The translations under genes were made by a program, and so were the position numbers. A stretch of 64,000 nt of DNA. Source: Nitrospira sp. (GTDB lineage Bacteria; Nitrospirota; Nitrospiria; Nitrospirales; Nitrospiraceae). The stretch is taken from the NCBI GenBank assembly GCA_030123565.1, contig CP126122.1, forward strand, positions 2,928,800 through 2,992,799. The letters run 5' to 3'. Of this stretch, positions 4,663 through 16,351 are shown piece by piece. The notes under the pieces are model-generated. The model did not search any database, was not told where the DNA came from, and worked only from the letters and a program-made list of their open reading frames with translations. Each line of letters begins with the position of its first letter. Position 1 is the stretch's first letter.

Positions 4663-5553
4663 ATGCCGATACCATACGAGACTCACCTTATGCTCGCGTT
4701 GGACTTGGTCAAGCTCACTCCGTTGATGCAACGCACCACCGGGATTCCCGAGTTCAGGATCGGGCTCATCGACGGGCCGGTCATGACGCGACATCCGGAT
4801 CTCTCGAGTCAACGATTTCTTGAGATTTCAGGTCACGGGGGCGGTTCATGTATTCGGGCGGCGAGCACCGCATGCCTGCATGGAACCTTTGTCGCCGGTG
4901 TCTTATCTGCAAAGCGGGATTCTCCCGCACCGGCTATTTGCCCCGATTGTACAGTTCTGATCCGCCCTATTTTTACCGAGACGACGGCCGACCGGGAACA
5001 GCTGCCCGGCGCAACGCCCGCGGAACTAGCCACTGCGATCTTAGAGTGCCTTGATGCAGGCGCACGAGTGATCAACCTGAGTCTTGCCCTTGTGCAACCT
5101 TCCAGCACAGGAGAGCGGACTTTGACGGAAGCACTGGATCAGGCAATCAGGCGTGGCGTGTTCATCGTGGCGGCGGCGGGCAATCAAGGCACCATTGGAG
5201 GTTCCGCCATCACCCGGCATCCGTGGGTCATCCCAGTCGTGGCTTGTGACCTCCGTGGTCGGCCGATGCAGGAATCGAATCTGGGCAACTCGATCGGCAC
5301 GCGAGGGTTGAGCGCACCCGGTGACGCCATCACCAGTTTGAGCACGGAAGGAGCTCCACTCACGCTCAGAGGAACGAGCATCGCCGTGCCTTTTGTGACG
5401 GGGACCATCGCCCTATTGTGGTCGGCTTTTCCAAAGGCGACCCCGGCGCAAGTGAAGGTTGCGATCACACAAGCGGCAGCGCCCAGACGAACATCGCTGG
5501 TGCCGCCGCTATTGAACGCCTGGGCGGCTTATCAGTTCCTGGCAACAGCATAG
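4663..5553 (+). CDS. PatA/PatG-type subtilisin-like (S8) protease
   Basis: This 296-aa serine protease has the S8 triad: Asp in LIDGPV (about residue 38), His in CLHGTFVAG and Ser in RGTSIAVPF, with the oxyanion Asn in AAAGNQG. The DGPV form of the Asp motif and the short single-domain build resemble the proteases that mature cyanobactins (PatA removes the leader, PatG macrocyclises). There is no signal peptide, so it probably acts in the cytosol on the precursor peptides encoded downstream. GAGGA abuts the first ATG; an ATG at 4690 is the alternative start. It opens a plus-strand gene series that runs to about 10152. Confidence 0.88.
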   Translation: MPIPYETHLMLALDLVKLTPLMQRTTGIPEFRIGLIDGPVMTRHPDLSSQRFLEISGHGGGSCIRAASTACLHGTFVAGVLSAKRDSPAPAICPDCTVLIRPIFTETTADREQLPGATPAELATAILECLDAGARVINLSLALVQPSSTGERTLTEALDQAIRRGVFIVAAAGNQGTIGGSAITRHPWVIPVVACDLRGRPMQESNLGNSIGTRGLSAPGDAITSLSTEGAPLTLRGTSIAVPFVTGTIALLWSAFPKATPAQVKVAITQAAAPRRTSLVPPLLNAWAAYQFLATA

Positions 5554-5570
5554 ATCAGGAGGTGGTGTCG

Positions 5571-5789
5571 ATGAAATCAAAGGAGCCCACAGCGATTCGG
5601 AGGGAGGGCCGCCCTCAGGCGCGATACAAGGTACGCCTTCCCGGCTTCATTCTCCACGAAGACGTGGGTCTCGGGACGATCGTGAAGCGAGTCACCTCGG
5701 CCTTCGGCGTGAGGCCATGTGGCGGTTGCGAACAACGGGCCGCTGCGCTGAATCGGTGGCTCGTATTTATCAGTAGGCACCCACAGTGA
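5571..5789 (+). CDS. Small protein with a PCGGC-x2-RAAALN motif
   Basis: This is a 72-aa basic protein that begins at an ATG behind AGGAGG (5556-5561). The central part reads GLGTIVKRVTSAFG and is followed by PCGGCEQRAAALNRW. The two cysteines in CGGC could bind metal or form a disulfide. It sits 17 bases after the protease gene and 21 before the PatG-like gene, so it is almost certainly cotranscribed with them. I know similar CGGC-xx-R-xxx-LN small proteins only as uncharacterised. It could be a helper of peptide maturation or a second substrate class. Confidence 0.65.
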   Translation: MKSKEPTAIRREGRPQARYKVRLPGFILHEDVGLGTIVKRVTSAFGVRPCGGCEQRAAALNRWLVFISRHPQ

Positions 5790-5810
5790 CATAAGTAAGA
5801 AGGAGGGACC

Positions 5811-6734
5811 ATGAATGAACAAGAAACGAAAGGCCAATCAACCAGTCAAGCCGTGGCGGACCGCGAGGGTTCCCCTGTGACTCCCTCCCAGGACAATACC
5901 GGCGTGGCTCCGCCAGCCGGAATGGCGCCTTGCCCGACTTGTTTCGGCGGACCGTGGACTCTGCCTCCCTCCTTTGTGTATGCCATCGGCCATATCGAAG
6001 GGCCGCGTTTTCCGAACCTCGCGGTGGAAAAAGAATACGCTCAGGCGGCCGCCCGGACAGACACAGCCGGCAAAACCGACCAACAGACGTTCCACGCCGT
6101 CCTCTCCAAGCGGGAACACCGTTATCTCGTCCGCCAGCTCTGTTGGGTGCTGAGCATCCAGGGGTTGGATTCCTATCTGCTGCGCCCGCGTGATCCGGCG
6201 GACATTGATCTGCTGGTGGAAGCAATCCGACCCCAGCCAAGTCCGATGGACATTGATGTGGTCATCGGGCTGCGCGGCCCCATCGCGCCGCCGGAATTGT
6301 GCAATGGGCTCATGGTGCCGATCGTCGCCTTCGACCAAATTTATTCTTTTGACCGAGATTCACTGATCAAAGCCATGCCCAAGCCGGAGAAGATGACTCC
6401 CAAGCAGTTCGCGCCGGCCGCAGAAGAGCTGTTCGCCCGCATCATGCAGATGACCGACAACGCCGGCGCCACCGACGAGCACCGCGCCTGGAATTATCTG
6501 GCGAATAGCTATCCCGCGATCTATGCCAAGGCGGCGGAAGAATTTGCAAGAGATTTTTCTCTGACGGCGGTCGAGGCACTGCCTTCCCTGAGGGGCACGC
6601 GGAAGATCGTCGATTGCATCTTCGCCTACACCAACCGCAACACGGACTTTACGGAGAAGTTTGTTGTCCGCTGCGATGTGACCGAGGAGTTTCCGTTCCT
6701 GGTAACAAAGCTGTCACCGTACTACGACCGTTAA
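5811..6734 (+). CDS. PatG C-terminal-like protein of a cyanobactin-type system
   Basis: This 307-aa soluble protein starts behind AAGGAGGG. After a flexible N-terminus with CPTC (about residue 41), it has FVYAIGHIEG, FPNLAVEKEYAQA and a conserved end, VTEEFPFLVTKLSPYYDR. This pattern matches, as far as I recall, the C-terminal domain of PatA/PatG cyanobactin proteins, whose role is not settled. Here it is a separate gene beside the subtilisin, where cyanobactin systems usually fuse the two. Its last 45 bases recur twice downstream, ahead of precursor-type sequence. No heterocyclase or oxidase gene is in the locus. Confidence 0.72.
   Translation: MNEQETKGQSTSQAVADREGSPVTPSQDNTGVAPPAGMAPCPTCFGGPWTLPPSFVYAIGHIEGPRFPNLAVEKEYAQAAARTDTAGKTDQQTFHAVLSKREHRYLVRQLCWVLSIQGLDSYLLRPRDPADIDLLVEAIRPQPSPMDIDVVIGLRGPIAPPELCNGLMVPIVAFDQIYSFDRDSLIKAMPKPEKMTPKQFAPAAEELFARIMQMTDNAGATDEHRAWNYLANSYPAIYAKAAEEFARDFSLTAVEALPSLRGTRKIVDCIFAYTNRNTDFTEKFVVRCDVTEEFPFLVTKLSPYYDR
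6690..6734 (+). repeat. Tail repeat T1 (3' end of the PatG-like gene)
   Basis: This is the first of three copies of a 45-base segment encoding FPFLVTKLSPYYDR. The other copies are at 7400-7444 and 8020-8064. Similarity continues past the stop through the ribosome-binding site and into the start of the next precursor gene. The duplicated unit is therefore the gene end plus one precursor gene. Confidence 0.8.
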
Positions 6735-6762
6735 GCTGAGAATGGGATAGGAGGGACGGACC

Positions 6763-7335
6763 ATGAATCTACCACGATTTACCGCAGAGGCCTCGCTCTC
6801 CAAGGCGCACGGGCAGTACCGGACCAGCCGACATACGGTCAATCCATCCGCGCAAACGGTTGGCCCGATCTGGCCAGCTCTGGAGCAGGAGCAGGAGGGG
6901 GAAGTGATCCACGTCCACGGCTGCCCGGCCGGCTGCATCGCGGTAGGCGAGCAGCCCAATATCACTTGCGTTTGCATTCCACCGGGAGGTGCCGGAGGTG
7001 GAGGCGAAGACCTGCCCCCTGGTGGACGACCGGATGATGGCGGGCCTTACGGCAAAGGCATAGAAACACTTGAAGAACGTATGAAACGTATGCGTCCACC
7101 GGGTCGCTACTGTAAACCCTTGGACTTTCCTGGAGGACGAGAAGCCCGGGATAAAGCAGAGCTAGATTGTGCGAAGCGAAGTAAGGGCAAAAAGAATCTT
7201 CTAACGCAGCTTGTATGCCGCGACCATCCGGACGGAACCGTCAGCTCAGGCTGTTGTTACTTTTCTTTCACAAAAGACGGCAGGTTTAAAGATCCCATAA
7301 TTTGCTATCACGCCGAGGAGGTGCCGCCCACGTGA
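6763..7335 (+). CDS. RiPP precursor peptide 1
   Basis: This 190-aa protein starts behind GGAGG. Its N-terminus has the family leader PRFTAEASLSK, followed by SAQTVGPIWPA about 30 residues in. A cysteine-containing segment (HGCPAGC and TCVC), a glycine/proline-rich linker and a longer cysteine-dotted C-terminus follow. The leader is shared with the genes at 7472, 8380 and 9811, while the rest differs strongly. That split between a constant leader and a variable core is typical of RiPP precursors. The product structure and cleavage site cannot be read from the sequence. At 190 aa it is long for a RiPP. Confidence 0.7.
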   Translation: MNLPRFTAEASLSKAHGQYRTSRHTVNPSAQTVGPIWPALEQEQEGEVIHVHGCPAGCIAVGEQPNITCVCIPPGGAGGGGEDLPPGGRPDDGGPYGKGIETLEERMKRMRPPGRYCKPLDFPGGREARDKAELDCAKRSKGKKNLLTQLVCRDHPDGTVSSGCCYFSFTKDGRFKDPIICYHAEEVPPT

Positions 7336-7399
7336 GAAGTGGCAGGCAATGCTTCAGGCGTGGCGTCTTGGTAATTCAGAGCAGGTTTTGCTCCCGCGT

Positions 7400-7444
7400 A
7401 TCCTATTCCTAGTGACGAAACTGTCGCCGTACTATGACCGTTAC
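7400..7444 (+). repeat. Tail repeat T2
   Basis: This second copy of the PatG-like gene end encodes LFLVTKLSPYYDRY. It lies 710 bp after T1 and directly before the ribosome-binding site of precursor 2. The stop codon has changed (TTAA to TTAC), so it is a non-coding duplication scar. Confidence 0.75.
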
Positions 7445-7471
7445 GGTGAGGATTGGATAGGAGGAATGACC

Positions 7472-7999
7472 ATGAATATGCCACGATTTACCGCAGAGGC
7501 CGTACTTTACAAAACGAGCGGGCATTACCGAACCGGTAGACAAGCAATCAATTTATCGGCCGAGATGATTCGACCGATACATCCGGCGAGGGAGGTGATC
7601 GAGATTCACAGTTGCCCACCCGGCTGGAGCGATATTGGCGGAACCTGCTGGCCCGATCCTTTAACGGAGCCGGGAGGAGGCAGTAGTGAGCCTGGTACGC
7701 CTGGCGTGCCGGGCGAGACCGGTGAGGGCGGTAGACCGGGTGGCGGTGGTGGTAACGGTGGTGTCCCGCTTGATAAGGATGCACCTATACCAGAGTTAGG
7801 TAACTGTAGTGCTAGGCAGATACAATCCAAAGCCGCGACGCCATGCCAGAAAAAAATAGAGGAGGACCTGATGAATAATGTTAAAAATCGTCACTATTTT
7901 GAATGCACGGGAAAAAGGAGGGGTAGGGTGCAGCACCCAAAGATGCAATGCTGTCAGCAAAAGGGTGACGACGTTATCGTCTGTGACGACTTGAATTAG
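7472..7999 (+). CDS. RiPP precursor peptide 2
   Basis: This 175-aa protein starts at the ATG behind GGATAGGAGGA. Its leader is MNMPRFTAEAVLYKTSGHYR, then INLSAEMIRPIHPA, parallel to precursor 1. A short segment with two cysteines (HSCPPGWSDIGGTCWPD) is followed by a collagen-like Gly/Pro stretch (about residues 68-98) and a basic C-terminus with CCQQKGDDVIVC. GC content falls in the C-terminal part compared with the neighbours. Its upstream flank matches that of precursor 1, so it arose by tandem duplication. The family assignment is inference from the shared leader. Confidence 0.7.
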   Translation: MNMPRFTAEAVLYKTSGHYRTGRQAINLSAEMIRPIHPAREVIEIHSCPPGWSDIGGTCWPDPLTEPGGGSSEPGTPGVPGETGEGGRPGGGGGNGGVPLDKDAPIPELGNCSARQIQSKAATPCQKKIEEDLMNNVKNRHYFECTGKRRGRVQHPKMQCCQQKGDDVIVCDDLN

Positions 8000-8007
8000 C
8001 CCGCGTA

Positions 8008-8340
8008 GTGACCAAGAAGTTTCCATTCCTCAGCACCAAGATGTCGCCATACTATGACCGTTACCCCTCAAAAACGACAAGGGGGACAGGCTACGCAATC
8101 TTGATCTTCATAAAAATAAACTGTCCTCTTTGTTGCCTATCCGGAGGAGACCACGGCCACTCAGTTTGGAAAAGTTCTTTTGCGCTCCGACACGATGGAA
8201 GAATTTCCGATCGTGCCTGGCCAACTGCCCGGCCTATCGCGTACTGCTCGATGAAGGGCTGTTGCATCGATCTGAGAGACCTGGGCATTCCCCGGATCTG
8301 CTGTAACGGGGACGAGTGTGGGCTCGATGTTCTGATTTAA
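8008..8340 (+). pseudogene. Deletion-fused precursor remnant carrying tail repeat T3
   Basis: This 110-codon open frame (GTG start) begins with tail repeat T3 (8020-8064, FLSTKMSPYYDRY). It then passes without a start codon or ribosome-binding site into SKTTRGTG, which resembles the end of a precursor leader (compare YKTTRTY in the gene at 9811). A cysteine-rich part follows (NCPLCCLSGG, MKGCCIDL, RICCNGDEC). The simplest reading is loss of roughly 60 bases between the tail repeat and the leader end. Expression as a functional precursor is doubtful. Confidence 0.55.
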
Positions 8341-8379
8341 CGTCTTTAACTTCGTGCAGCAACCGAAAGGAGACATCCC

Positions 8380-8577
8380 ATGGGCATGCCGGGATTTACC
8401 GCGAGTGCCTCGCTCTACAAAACAAGGGGGGCGCTGGGCGACGGTACAGGCGCAAGGCCTTCGCAGAGCAGGAGCACAACCCGTTCGTCCTCAACTTGGC
8501 TTCGATCCATTTCGCAGCTCGGTAAGCCTCGGTCTTTTCGGCGGCTGGGGGAGTTGGTTATGCAGGCTGAAATATCT
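8380..8577 (+). pseudogene. RiPP precursor 3, frameshifted and split by an IS481 element
   Basis: The ATG behind AAAGGAG begins MGMPGFTASASLYKTRG. At the six-G run 8426-8431 the similarity changes frame: the +1 frame reads RWATVQAQGLRRAGAQPVRP, which aligns with SAQTVGPIWP and SAEMIRPIHP of precursors 1 and 2. That frame continues to 8577, where the IS begins. It resumes at 9609-9750 without a stop, reading to LNCMICDQQHTNCLKGCG. The original gene therefore probably spanned both sides of the IS. Two lesions make it inactive. Confidence 0.65.
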
Positions 8578-9608
8578 TGTTGAGAGTTGGCCCCCCGCAT
8601 GGGCTACAGTCACGCGCCATGACAAGGGGGGATCGAATGCGATTGATCACGACGAAGGAACTGAGCACCTTGCGCATTGCCACACGGCATCACCACACCA
8701 TCAACAGCCGGCTGGCGATCTTACGCTCTGCTGAGGAGCATGGCTTCAAAGGCGCCGCCCGGCGATTCGGACTGGACCGCAAGACCGTCCGGACCTGGCA
8801 CCGCCGTTGGGTGGCCAGTGGGCCCGCCGGATTGGTGCCGCGCCATCCGCTGAAGCGCCGCCGGCGGCTTTCCGAAGAGACCGTACGACGCATCACGCAA
8901 GCCCGCCGCGATCTTGCAGTTTGGGGCGATGCGGACGCGCATCTGGCTTGATCGGGTGCATCGCATTCGGGTAGCGACCGCGACGATCCGCCGGATTTGC
9001 CGGGACCTCGGCTATCCCCCGGTTCGGCGGACCGAGCCGCGGCGCTCCCGCCACCCGATCCTCTTCAGGAAAGAGCACCCCGGCGAGTGTGTGCAGGTCG
9101 ATGTCAAGGAAGTGAAGGTCGCCGGCCAGAAATGTTTTCAATACACGGCCCTCGATGACTGCACGCGGTATCGCGTCTTGCGCCTGTATCCGCGCAAGTA
9201 TCACGGCACCAGTCTCGACTTCTTGGCCACCGTACGACAAACCCTGCCGTTCCCCATTCGGAAAGGTCAGGTCGACAACGGGACCGAATTCCCGCTGGCC
9301 TTTGCTCTGGCCGTGCAAGAAGCCGGCATCCGCCTGCGGTATATCAAGCCGCGCCGGCCCGAACAGAATGGGAAGGTGGAGCGCAGTCATCGCATCGACG
9401 AGGAAGAATTTTGGAGTCGCTCGACGTTTGACGAGTTCACATCCGCGGCTCAGGCGCTGCGCGCCTGGGAGCATCGGTACAACCACGACCGATTTTCCAT
9501 GGCCCTCCACGGCCTCACACCTGCCGAGAAATTGGCGACATTGCTCTCGCCACCGGCACCACCATCACCACCCGCACCATGCACGCACACGGGGGCCACT
9601 GCTTGACA
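8578..9608 (+). mobile_element. IS481-family insertion sequence
   Basis: This 1,031-bp element has imperfect terminal inverted repeats: TGTTGAGAGTTGGCCCCC on the left and, read inward from the right, TGTCAAGCAGTGGCCCCC. The TGT...ACA ends are typical of the family. It carries one transposase gene on the plus strand. I found no clear target-site duplication. The flanking reading frame of precursor 3 is continuous across the element. Confidence 0.85.
8637..9606 (+). pseudogene. IS481-type transposase with an internal frameshift
   Basis: The N-terminal part (8637-8951, AAGGGGGG before the ATG) has a helix-turn-helix (GAARRFGLDRKTVRTWHRRW). The C-terminal part lies in the next frame (from about 8914) and has the rve/DDE core: Asp in VQVDVKEV, Asp in VDNGTEF and Glu in NGKVERSHR. 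The two frames join smoothly as RRDLQFGAMRT if one base is dropped near 8911. IS481 transposases are normally a single frame of about 320 aa, so this copy is probably inactive. A programmed shift is possible but not usual for the family. Confidence 0.8.
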
Positions 9609-9810
9609 AGCTATGACACAGGCTGTGGTGCGACACCGCCTGGCGCTCTTGCTTGGAGACCTGCGAAGGCACGTGGGACAACCCAAGCCGTCCCTCAACT
9701 GCATGATTTGTGATCAGCAGCATACTAACTGTCTGAAAGGATGTGGTTGAACCGCGGGTTACCAACGAGGAATTGGATCAGCAACTCACTATCCGAGAGG
9801 AGATGCCGCC

Positions 9811-10152
9811 ATGAAATTACCAGGCTTTACTGCCGGGTCCACGCTTTACAAAACGACAAGGACCTACAACAGCATCGGACGTTCCTTTGTGACGCCAGGC
9901 AATCACGGAGTCTTGCTCCAACTTCCCATTGGCTTTTGCCAAGCCAATTGCGACCACATCAGCGACCCATTTTTGAGGTCGGTGTGCAACCTGCAATGCT
10001 TCGATCAGGGAGGTGGAGGAGGCGGTGCCGGCAGAGGGGGTCAATTCTGTAGACCCGGGTGCGGGCCTTGCCATCGCGACCCGGACTCGCCCACCGGCAG
10101 ATATAAAACCTGTGTCAAACGCAACTGCGATACGTATGACGTGCGCTGCTGA
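9811..10152 (+). CDS. RiPP precursor peptide 4
   Basis: This intact 113-aa precursor starts behind GAGAGGAG. Its leader is MKLPGFTAGSTLYKTTRTY, then VLLQLPIGFC. The rest is cysteine-rich: QANC, SVCNLQC, an eight-residue-plus glycine run, then CRPGCGPC and CVKRNCDTYDVRC at the end. Eleven cysteines in the last 75 residues suggest disulfides, thioethers or metal binding, unlike the small heterocyclised cores of classic cyanobactins. It is the last gene of the series and is followed by a hairpin terminator. Confidence 0.75.
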   Translation: MKLPGFTAGSTLYKTTRTYNSIGRSFVTPGNHGVLLQLPIGFCQANCDHISDPFLRSVCNLQCFDQGGGGGGAGRGGQFCRPGCGPCHRDPDSPTGRYKTCVKRNCDTYDVRC

Positions 10153-10525: not shown

Positions 10526-10546
10526 CTGTAACTCAATAGGTTACAG
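10526..10546. promoter_or_regulatory. Candidate HigA operator
   Basis: CTGTAAC and GTTACAG form a perfect 7-bp inverted repeat around seven bases, directly ahead of higB. HigA antitoxins repress their own operon through such a palindrome. The right arm reaches the upstream GTG (10546), which favours the GTG at 10555 as the true start. Confidence 0.6.
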
Positions 10547-10554
10547 TGAGTCTC

Positions 10555-10833
10555 GTGATCCGCAGGTTCAAGCACAAAGGTTTAGGCCGATTTTTCGAGA
10601 CCGGCAATAAATCAGGTATCCAGGTACAGCACGCGGAGCGGCTTCGCCTCATCCTAGCCCAATTGAACGCGGCCACCGTGCCACAAGATATGGCACTCCC
10701 CGGATTGGATCTCCATCCACTAAAGGGTGATCGCAAGGGCGAATGGGCTGTTTCTGTCAGCGGAAACTGGCGGATCACGTTTCGATTTGTCGGCAAAGAC
10801 GCGGATGCCGTTGATTACGAGGATTATCATTAG
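10555..10833 (+). CDS. higB: HigB-type toxin of a type II toxin-antitoxin system
   Basis: This 92-aa RelE/ParE-fold protein is expected to cleave ribosome-bound mRNA. Its N-terminus IRRFKHKGLGRFFETG and the core LDLHPLKGDRKGEWAVSVSGNWRITF are characteristic of HigB. The GTG at 10555 fits the family N-terminus, while the GTG at 10546 would overlap the operator. The toxin gene precedes the antitoxin gene, the usual higBA order, with 12 bases between them. Confidence 0.9.
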   Translation: MIRRFKHKGLGRFFETGNKSGIQVQHAERLRLILAQLNAATVPQDMALPGLDLHPLKGDRKGEWAVSVSGNWRITFRFVGKDADAVDYEDYH

Positions 10834-10845
10834 TGAGGTCCTATC

Positions 10846-11130
10846 ATGCGTATGCACAACCCCCCTCACCCCGGTGAAATTATCAAAAACCTGTGCCTGA
10901 CCCCTCTCGGTGTCAGTGTCACCCAAGCAGCTCAAGCATTGGGAATCAGCCGTAAAACCCTATCCGCCATTCTCAACGGCCGCGCTGGGATTAGCCCTGA
11001 GATGGCCATCCGCTTGTCCATGGCATTTGGCACTTCTGCTGAGAGCTGGCTCAATCAGCAAACCCAGTATGACCTGTGGCACGCTGAGCAGCGCCGCAAA
11101 CGACTTCGTGTCGTCAAACTTGCGGTGTAA
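10846..11130 (+). CDS. higA: HigA-type antitoxin, Xre-family
   Basis: This 94-aa protein starts [20 protein letters not shown], the HigA signature, and has a helix-turn-helix ([21 protein letters not shown]). It would bind and neutralise HigB and repress the operon, probably at 10526-10546. A GAGG lies about eight bases before the ATG. The length is normal and no damage is visible. Confidence 0.92.
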
Positions 11131-13946: not shown

Positions 13947-16229
13947 TCAGTAAGGCACATCGTCGTAGGCGTACCCAAGCCCGTCCTGGGGTCGATGCTT
14001 GCCCAGGTAATCGATCACATCCCGCACCCGCACGGCGGTCGCTCCGGCTGGCCAAAGATTGCCGACGGATGACGACGGGAATGTCCGCGGCACCATCGGC
14101 CGTCCGGCTGTGACATTCTCTCCCGTGACGGGATCAAGCAAATCTGCCGCGCTGGCTTGAGGCACCGGCCGTTCGCCCCGTGCGTCGGGGCCTGAAGGCC
14201 CGGCTGTGCCGTCCCACGGCCACATCGTATCGTCGGCGAACGATCCCCGCCACCAGTCGGTGACTCCGGCGGCATCCCATCTTCCAGTGTTATCGAAGTG
14301 GGCCGGCGCCGGGAAGGTGAGACTTCCGGCAACGGATACCCCATGCCTGCCGTGACGCTGTTGCCAAAACGCCCATTGGCGATCCACTTGCGAGTGCAGC
14401 AGATAGAACAGCGGATCGGCCGCCGACCGATTCGGATTCACCGAATGGCCGAACCCGCAGTTCCACGCATGGGCAAGGTCGTGAGATTCCTGTTCGACCC
14501 GCGCACTGAACGTATCGTTCAAGGTTTGGCCGGGGCTTCCTGTTTGTGGACCGAAATCGGCGAACGACACGAGGCCCGTGGGGCCGGTGAGCGTGCGAAA
14601 CGGGAGACTGCTCGCCGGGGCCACGGTTTGGTCCCACCGCTGCCGCCGTAACTGCCCGGCTGCATAGCGCAAGTCCGTCCTCCATCCGTTCAGCGGATTC
14701 GACAGGGCGAACAGGGGTTCCGCCACCGGCCCGCTGCCGCCCGCCCCAGCCCCCATGAAATCTTGAATGAAGACATTCGGCGCGGCATCGTCCCAGTTCC
14801 AATAGGGAATCGTGACGCTGGGGTCGATCGCCTGTAGCGCCCTCTCCACCTGGGTCAGAAACGCCCGGTGCCACGGCAGGAATCCAGGCTGGTGATGGGC
14901 CTGATCGCGATCCATCACCGTGACCGCCAGCCGATGCGTTTCCTGAAAGATGAAATATTCGCCGCGGTTGCGCAGCTCTTTCATCGCGCGGAGAAAGCGA
15001 TCCCGCTCCGGCGCAGTCAAGGCGTTCGCATTCTTTCGGATTCGCACCATCAACGATTTCTTGCCGACGACGGGGCCGGCCGCGGTAGTCTCATGCACCT
15101 CGATCACGGCATCCTTGTCGGTCGTGCTGGGCCGGCCGAACTTTCCGGCGATCACAAACGACTTCCAGCTGCTGTCGGCCGAAAGCGTGAGGGGCAACGT
15201 ATCTGCGGTGGCGGTCGTATTCGGAGGCCAAGGCGTTTGAAACGCATCGAACAGGAGGTCGCCGGCGGAAACTCCGGCAACCGGCGGATCATTGGTCAAG
15301 ACGACTGAAAGATCGGGTCCTCCCCACGTGCCGGGCTTGATCCTCGCTCGACTGAACGTCGGCGCCCAGGTCACATAGTCATCCGTCTCGGCCGCCGTCT
15401 GGTTGATTTCCACTTCCACCTGCGCCCGCAACAGTCCCGGCCAATTTCCTGCGATGAGGGCGGGATAGTTCAAGCCCCCCTCACTACGATCGTCCCCGCG
15501 GTCGGCCTCGACTCCATACCGCATATATTGATTACCCTTGAAGAAATAAATGACCGACTTCCCCTCGATCTTGTCCGGCCAGGCCACGGCCCCGTCCACC
15601 CCGTCGGGAAATTTGAAGTTCGGCCAATTGCCCGCAATCGGCCTGGGGTAGCCGGGGTCGGCGCGGTGATTCTTCACGTCAAACCGGATGTACTGATTCC
15701 CTCTGAAGAAATAGGCGACGGTGCGGCCGTTCCTCGGGACCGGCCACACGACTACGGCATCGACCCGATCGGTCCAGATGCCGGGCCACTTGAGGGCGAT
15801 CGGTTGCGGATAGGGCGTTCCGGCGCCGTCTGCAGCATCCGCCCGATCGGCCGTGACATCGTATCGCATGAACCGGTTGCCTTTGAAAAAGTAGGCGACG
15901 GTTTTTGGTTCGCCGCCATGGGGCGGCGGAGCCGGCCAAAATACCGCCGCATCGATATCCTCCGTGAAGAGTCCCGGCCAATTCCCCTGGATGGGGCGGG
16001 GATAGGGATTGCCCTGGTCGTCTCTCTCGTCCACCCGGTCGCTCGCGACATCATAGCGTGTGTATTCGTTCCCCTGGAGAAAGTAGACTTTCCCATTGTT
16101 CCAGAGGACTGGGACAAGCTTGTGCGAGCCCCCTATCTGTGCGAGGGCTTCATCGCCCCCGCACACACCCACAGCCAACACCATTCCAAGAAGGATCTGA
16201 GACCATCCTGTCACGGTGAGTGTTTTCAT
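13947..16229 (-). CDS. Secreted tyrosinase-type copper protein with a hemopexin propeller
   Basis: This 760-aa protein starts at an ATG with GAGG just upstream, followed by a signal peptide (ILLGMVLAVGVCGGDEALA). Four hemopexin repeats come first (VYFLQGNEYTRYDV, VAYFFKGNRFMRYDV, VAYFFRGNQYIRFDV, VIYFFKGNQYMRYGV), one full four-bladed propeller. A tyrosinase domain follows. CuA ligands lie in ETHRLA and HHQPGFLPWHRAFL. CuB ligands lie in HDLAHAWNCGFGH and DPLFYLLHSQVDRQW. Tyrosinases oxidise phenols to quinones; the substrate here is unknown. The promoter is probably sigma54-dependent (16352-16367). Confidence 0.88.
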   Translation of the reverse strand: MKTLTVTGWSQILLGMVLAVGVCGGDEALAQIGGSHKLVPVLWNNGKVYFLQGNEYTRYDVASDRVDERDDQGNPYPRPIQGNWPGLFTEDIDAAVFWPAPPPHGGEPKTVAYFFKGNRFMRYDVTADRADAADGAGTPYPQPIALKWPGIWTDRVDAVVVWPVPRNGRTVAYFFRGNQYIRFDVKNHRADPGYPRPIAGNWPNFKFPDGVDGAVAWPDKIEGKSVIYFFKGNQYMRYGVEADRGDDRSEGGLNYPALIAGNWPGLLRAQVEVEINQTAAETDDYVTWAPTFSRARIKPGTWGGPDLSVVLTNDPPVAGVSAGDLLFDAFQTPWPPNTTATADTLPLTLSADSSWKSFVIAGKFGRPSTTDKDAVIEVHETTAAGPVVGKKSLMVRIRKNANALTAPERDRFLRAMKELRNRGEYFIFQETHRLAVTVMDRDQAHHQPGFLPWHRAFLTQVERALQAIDPSVTIPYWNWDDAAPNVFIQDFMGAGAGGSGPVAEPLFALSNPLNGWRTDLRYAAGQLRRQRWDQTVAPASSLPFRTLTGPTGLVSFADFGPQTGSPGQTLNDTFSARVEQESHDLAHAWNCGFGHSVNPNRSAADPLFYLLHSQVDRQWAFWQQRHGRHGVSVAGSLTFPAPAHFDNTGRWDAAGVTDWWRGSFADDTMWPWDGTAGPSGPDARGERPVPQASAADLLDPVTGENVTAGRPMVPRTFPSSSVGNLWPAGATAVRVRDVIDYLGKHRPQDGLGYAYDDVPY

Positions 16230-16351
16230 GTCCTCACTTCTCCTTCCAATCCTTTCTCGATCCGGCTCACCCATGAGCCCCTCCTCACGTTCCATCCTTC
16301 AATTCCGACGACCACCCTTCAGGTCCACATCCGAAGACGAACACTTCGAAA

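Follow-up and report, generated by a model that had tools for sequence, protein, structure and literature searches.

In prochlorosin systems, one processing module serves many precursors that have a common leader and unrelated cores, and some of these precursors lie outside the cluster. In cyanobactin pathways, the domain of unknown function (DUF) of PatG has been solved and has a novel fold; it did not bind PatE, with or without heterocycles, and the structure paper left its role, and the question of why it is conserved, open (PMC4259220). A stand-alone form of this DUF is encoded in a 64,000-nucleotide stretch of a Nitrospira sp. genome (contig CP126122.1, positions 2,928,800 to 2,992,799), which is called the window here and to whose full 64 kb the coordinates below refer unless stated otherwise. 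The locus combines the DUF protein with a PatA-type subtilisin, a small CxxC protein, and several short genes that begin with a common leader. We consider it probably a system resembling those of ribosomally synthesized and post-translationally modified peptides (RiPPs), in which a split PatA-like leader peptidase would release disulfide-rich mini-proteins. The gene set, the leader and its co-occurrence, the cysteine parity, the sharing of cores, and the purifying selection on them were computed directly.

An earlier note on the window, made from its sequence, had named these genes, and all of them are present where it placed them. On the forward strand, a PatA-type subtilisin of 296 aa (4663-5553; Peptidase_S8, E 4.5e-24), a CGGC (CxxC) protein of 72 aa (5571-5789), and a 307-aa protein made of stand-alone PatG_D (PF18047; E 3e-32) and PatG_C (PF18065; E 2e-28) domains (5811-6734) are followed by precursor open reading frames (ORFs). 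Precursor 1 (190 aa; 6763-7335; leader profile E 9.6e-15) consists of the leader and a core rich in cysteine, glycine, and proline; precursor 2 has 175 aa (7472-7999; E 4.3e-15), and precursor 4 (113 aa; 9811-10152; E 1.9e-6) carries a CX3C...CX3C motif (CQANCDHISDPFLRSVCNLQC). The cores of these three have 10, 8, and 10 cysteines, respectively, counted in the translations. The note had listed at least four precursor-type sequences, and of the four these three are intact; the remaining one, at 8380, is frameshifted, cut by an insertion sequence, and dead, and a fifth, decayed core lies at about 8225-8342. The window precursors matched nothing in Pfam, NCBIfam, PHROGs, or PADLOC. As in RiPP loci, ribosomal precursors made of leader and core stand beside a dedicated leader peptidase, judging by composition, conservation, and co-occurrence of the protease, with cleavage as the presumed step between them.

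The leader has ~35 residues and ends near [VI]-x-P-[QA]. Its consensus is M-x-x-P-G-F-[TN]-A-E-x-S-L...[VI]-x-P-[QA], and a profile of 38 rows built from 87 strict leader genes reads M-x-x-P-G-F-T-A-E-A-S-L...Y...V-x-P-Q. In the 4.6-Mb, single-contig Nitrospira genome, this profile found eight sites, all at the window locus or at a second locus near 2.227 Mb, and because they fall at these two loci only, the occurrence of the leader is not due to chance. The earlier note had asked whether leader and 307-aa protein always occur together and had named, as grounds for refutation, a leader that is widespread without any PatA/PatG-type gene; this check did not refute it in a sample of 704 genomes (41 Nitrospira relatives, 125 Nitrosomonadaceae, 247 Acidobacteriota, and 291 Cyanobacteriota). 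The stand-alone PatG-type form was accompanied by the leader in 23/23 genomes, and the leader was not widespread without a PatA/PatG-type gene, being found alone in one more genome (G387). Among Nitrospira relatives, PatG_C and leader were found in the identical four genomes; among Nitrosomonadaceae, PatG_C occurred in 16 genomes, all 16 with the leader, and the one leader-only genome, with a single leader gene, belongs to this group. Both acidobacterial genomes with stand-alone PatG_C had the leader; a third acidobacterial genome, in which the protein is fused (643 aa), had none. PatG_C was found in 26 Cyanobacteriota, mostly in long fused frames (a few matches were in short frames whose form was not inspected), and the leader occurred only in the genome with a 312-aa stand-alone form. 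The leader was thus not found in ~26 genomes with a fused cyanobactin-type protein (25 sampled cyanobacteria, mostly with fused frames, and one acidobacterium). The 23 genomes include one, G019, in which subtilisin and DUF occupy a single open frame, where an internal start is possible, and in which the leader is present. In Nitrosospira-type genomes, extra leader genes are solitary, on other contigs or far from the cluster, and the cores of these solitary precursors are alike between species.

Core statistics were drawn from 125 precursors that passed the leader profile, giving 91 non-redundant cores. Core length ranged from 21 to 201 residues (median, 53), and the cysteine content was 11.8% in cores, compared with 0.6% in leaders and 2.2% in control ORFs. 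A "core family" of 50 members obtained by single-linkage clustering was a chaining artefact, and parity was therefore recomputed on non-redundant cores. Of the 91 cores, 88 have two or more cysteines, and in 85 of these the number is even, compared with 158 of 278 control ORFs (Fisher p 1.5e-14), although cores that are related may still not be fully independent after the redundancy reduction that preceded the count. Twin CX3C motifs were present in 22/91 cores, compared with 6.7 ± 2.1 in shuffles, and [VIL]xP[QA] was present at residues 25 to 48 in 81/125 precursors, compared with 6.8 ± 2.5 after shuffling. Orthologous cores are under purifying selection; in one pair (L028/L042), the cores differ by 20 synonymous and 2 non-synonymous changes and the leader has diverged, as is expected if cores and leaders are exchangeable. 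Core families are also shared across genera and phyla, for example, one Nitrotoga core and one deltaproteobacterial core. Of further precursors tried in family searches, only an acidobacterial one matched known families. This is a 294-aa leader-bearing protein (L050:8927-9811, reverse strand) whose core matches cysteine-rich repeats of the MXAN_6577 and STIG1 types; a second CxxC gene lies beside its gene, also on the reverse strand.

It is the parity of the cysteines that points to disulfides in the cores. An improbable alternative is that the cores are metal-binding (e.g., zinc) peptides and the even counts reflect cytoplasmic Cys4-type sites; four cysteines is a common count, and the protease and the DUF protein seem cytoplasmic, but the counts range over 2, 4, 6, 8, 10, and more, adjacent CC pairs are common, and the twin CX3C motifs suit disulfide hairpins better than zinc ribbons.

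The distribution of the cassette bears on a different alternative. Relatives of the 307-aa protein, which have 52 to 80% identity to it in their best-matching segment, come from Nitrospira, Nitrosomonas, Nitrosospira, Nitrotoga, Methylobacter, and Accumulibacter and, within the same range, from Acidobacteriota, deltaproteobacterial bins, Pseudanabaena, a pleurocapsalean, Ferruginibacter, and a Methanoperedens bin. Plasmids of Mesorhizobium, Sinorhizobium, and Streptomyces also carry relatives; on plasmids, the CxxC protein occurs only in the four records with a close PatG-like gene, and the subtilisin occurs in 3/4 of these. The cassette is spread over at least seven bacterial phyla and one archaeal bin (Methanoperedens), with organism names as in the sequence records and bins that may carry contamination. 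No leader match was found in phage records, and a scan of viral contigs with the PatG-like protein gave no relative. In an all-against-all comparison of 573 neighboring ORFs from 41 loci, no gene beyond the set recurred, and the other common families reflected genus-level synteny or were broad families. AMP-binding enzymes, a tyrosinase, and a helicase were considered as linked partners and rejected as genus-level synteny or unrelated.

Patchy distribution, transfer between phyla, and occurrence on plasmids would also suit an intracellular protease-substrate system of defense or programmed death, in which leader proteins are cut upon a trigger, and subtilisins are known from candidate defense systems; an insertion element and a toxin-antitoxin pair lie nearby. 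We regard such a system as unlikely, since in PADLOC the protease has only generic subtilase and IetS matches and its partner genes have none, no recurring sensor or nuclease gene accompanies the loci, and cysteine-rich cores are poorly suited to a cytoplasmic effector.

Returning to the split leader peptidase, the closest solved relatives of the subtilisin are the N-terminal cyanobactin proteases 4h6w and 4h6v, with the PatG macrocyclase a weaker match; we take 4h6w to be PagA, so that the nearest solved relatives would be PagA and PatA. The window subtilisin has the features of a PatA-type leader protease of cyanobactins. The catalytic residues D37, H73, N174, and S239 are invariant in 20 homologues, which begin near residue 10. 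A profile of the subtilisin scored 127 to 149 bits on PatA-type domains and 63 to 71 bits on those of PatG type, in which the macrocyclase insertion interrupts the alignment. A tree of 38 subtilisin domains sets the 24 from these loci apart by a 100/100 branch, with the PatA/PatG group outside, although the bootstrap was not fully settled. No macrocyclizing protease of the PatG type was found, as the sole subtilisin at the locus aligns without the PatG insertion and belongs to a clade that excludes PatG. Four cysteines (C63, C71, C93, and C96) are likewise invariant in the 20 homologues, and of these only C96 has a cysteine counterpart in solved PatA/PagA. They might form extra disulfides, a redox switch, or a metal site.

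The earlier note had reported no heterocyclase, oxidase, or prenyltransferase, and indeed none of these, and no transporter, recurs around the 41 loci, although such enzymes are not part of every cyanobactin pathway either. That a cyanobactin-type RiPP pathway recruits the missing tailoring enzymes from distant genes of the same genome and makes heterocyclized or macrocyclic products is very improbable, for although the protease and the DUF are related to PatA/PatG and the genome has one YcaO gene, that gene lies ~1.4 Mb from the window locus, no tailoring gene recurs near the loci, cyanobactin-type genomes lack the leader, there is no macrocyclase-type protease, even cysteine parity suits pairing rather than azoles, and the cores of 20 to 200 residues show by eye no AYDG-type end signal.

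The DUF protein, the second component of the proposed leader peptidase, corresponds to the cyanobactin PatA/PatG DUF but is a separate protein here. A Foldseek search with a model of the 307-aa protein gave 4uvq, the PatG DUF, as the top and only significant PDB match (E 1.8e-7, at full match probability), from a model of moderate confidence (mean predicted local distance difference test [pLDDT] score, 67; predicted template modeling [pTM] score, 0.37). A PDB sequence search with the protein gave nothing relevant, and 4uvq was reached by fold search alone. In most stand-alone DUF proteins, [VI]-x-P-Q followed by a CxC segment stands just N-terminal of the domain. The same motif ends leaders, and its presence in both may mark a cleavage site or a substrate mimic. 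That the DUF is kept without a linked heterocyclase or macrocyclase would narrow its job to handling or cutting the precursor, which is directly testable.

Homologues of the CxxC protein are encoded at 33/41 loci. The protein has no match in Pfam, NCBIfam, or PADLOC and weakly matches PHROG 32048, the function of which is unknown. Its model is a helical hairpin with CxxC at the start of a helix (mean pLDDT, 73), and a fold search with this model gave no match. Its motif R-[VM]-[RH]-L-P-G-F resembles the start of the leader, and in G019 the CxxC protein itself starts with the leader. The pattern GLG...C..C..R...LN of the CxxC protein is also seen (E 2e-5) in a protein of Nonlabens phage P12024S (L118:1465-1824) that is encoded two genes 5' of the terminase.

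The second locus in the same genome (L009:6373-9813, genome positions 2226372-2229812) was found by the leader pattern and by the PatG_C model alike. It encodes a subtilisin, a PatG-like protein, and five leader genes of 64 to 74 aa; no CxxC gene was found there. In the tree of 38 domains, its subtilisin groups with the cyanobacterial copies and not with that of the window; the two cyanobacterial copies are joined with 98/82 support, and the fork joining them to the second-locus subtilisin is weak (83/52). Since this subtilisin sits nearer the cyanobacterial copies, the weakly supported fork suggests that the second locus was acquired separately from the window locus.

From these results we infer a cleavage site, roles for the DUF and CxxC proteins, disulfides, export, and activity as follows. 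Many small genes would each encode a common leader of ~35 residues and an unrelated core. The PatA-like subtilisin, the separate DUF protein, and usually the CxxC protein would recognize the leader and cut near [VI]-x-P-[QA]. The released cores, of median length 53 and with paired cysteines, would fold as disulfide-bonded mini-proteins that are probably extracellular and act as competition or signaling peptides, reaching the outside by an unlinked export route. A single module may serve several precursors, including solitary distant ones, and new products may arise by copying of leader and upstream units and by movement of cores between loci and species. Several observations weigh against this scheme. 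Export of a disulfide-rich product is unexplained, because no exporter recurs and the protease has no signal peptide that could be seen by eye. A third of precursors, those of the window among them, have a degenerate form of the motif [VI]xP[QA], and the DUF protein of the window is degenerate at [VI]-x-P-Q as well. Binding of the leader by the DUF is not to be assumed, because no binding to PatE was seen with the solved PatG DUF (PMC4259220). No CxxC gene was found at 8/41 loci, and even cysteine counts are compatible with metal-binding peptides too.

Whether the system amounts to a cross-phylum and so far undescribed class, in which a split PatA-like protease, a stand-alone DUF, and a CxxC protein would release exchangeable disulfide mini-proteins and the role of the DUF, open since 2014, would lie in leader-directed proteolysis and not in azole or macrocycle chemistry, is a question on which we are evenly divided. 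The note had known of no described system of this kind, and no earlier description was found in the literature searched, from whose scope most subscription journals and bioRxiv were excluded. If the proposal is true, nitrifiers, acidobacteria, methanotrophs, rhizobia, streptomycetes, and cyanobacteria have in common a compact machine that makes disulfide-rich peptides, and the leader profile can be used at once to find many more such systems.

Copied and decayed sequences lie between the intact precursors, all on the forward strand. A 130-bp unit made of the PatG-like gene tail, the ribosome binding site, and the leader is duplicated (6696-6825 and 7406-7534; 80% identity), which places a copied 3' end of the PatG-like gene (7406-7471) 5' of precursor 2. 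A decayed further copy of the gene tail and spacer lies at 8003-8101 (69% identity to 6673-6770), and with this copy and the duplication before precursor 2, the sequence itself shows what the unit of copying is. The relic core at about 8225-8342 (...CSMKGCCIDLRDLGIPRICCNGDECGLDVLI) has no in-frame leader and matches a precursor core of Nitrosomonas sp. Nm166 (L026:8099-8213) with 83.5% DNA identity (E 1.4e-32). Precursor 3 (8380-8577, from the ORF list and sequence) matches the leader profile to position 17 only. Its leader is in one frame, and the GAQPVRPQLGF V-x-P-Q patch and core are in another (ORF 8354-8734); it is then interrupted by an IS481-like insertion element (about 8578-9608, ends read by eye) with HTH_29 and rve/rve_3 domains. 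The helix-turn-helix (HTH) ORF (8577-8951) and the rve ORF (8914-9606) of this element overlap by 38 bases in different frames, possibly as a frameshift-expressed transposase. Directly 3' of the last precursor is a pair of HigB-type toxin and HTH antitoxin genes (10546-11130, forward strand). Farther along, a 782-aa protein (13950-16295, reverse strand) joins hemopexin repeats to a tyrosinase domain, and tyrosinase-type genes are also close to several Nitrosospira-type loci of the system.

The note had called the locus cyanobactin-like, which holds for the PatA-type protease and the DUF of PatG fold and fails as a class assignment, given that the leader is missing from cyanobactin-type genomes, the protease groups outside PatA/PatG (100/100) and has no macrocyclase insertion, and the cores have even cysteine numbers. 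The system is not a cyanobactin pathway, though it would work like the first step of one; tests for a macrocyclase, a PatE-type leader, and linked tailoring enzymes showed all three to be absent, and the PatE-type leader and core-flanking signals (GLEAS and AYDG) were not seen in the precursors by eye. With the PatA and PagA pathways (patellamide and prenylagaramide), it has in common a PatA-type subtilisin domain, a DUF of 4uvq fold, several precursors, and hypervariable cores from which a conserved leader is presumably removed. It differs from them in that protease and DUF are separate genes, the protease forms its own clade, the leader is of the FTAE..VxPQ type, no macrocyclase, heterocyclase, oxidase, or prenyltransferase is linked, the cores are long and of disulfide type, and the distribution extends far beyond cyanobacteria. 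Prochlorosin-type systems (ProcM/Nif11) are alike in their single module, many precursors with common leader and unrelated cores, and off-cluster precursors, but here there is no lanthipeptide synthetase or Nif11/NHLP leader, and the cysteines are apparently paired with each other. Plant alpha-hairpinins have the twin CX3C...CX3C motif found in roughly one in four non-redundant cores, a likeness of motif spacing only; the proteins described here are bacterial, have a short non-hydrophobic leader, and are apparently matured by a PatA-like protease.

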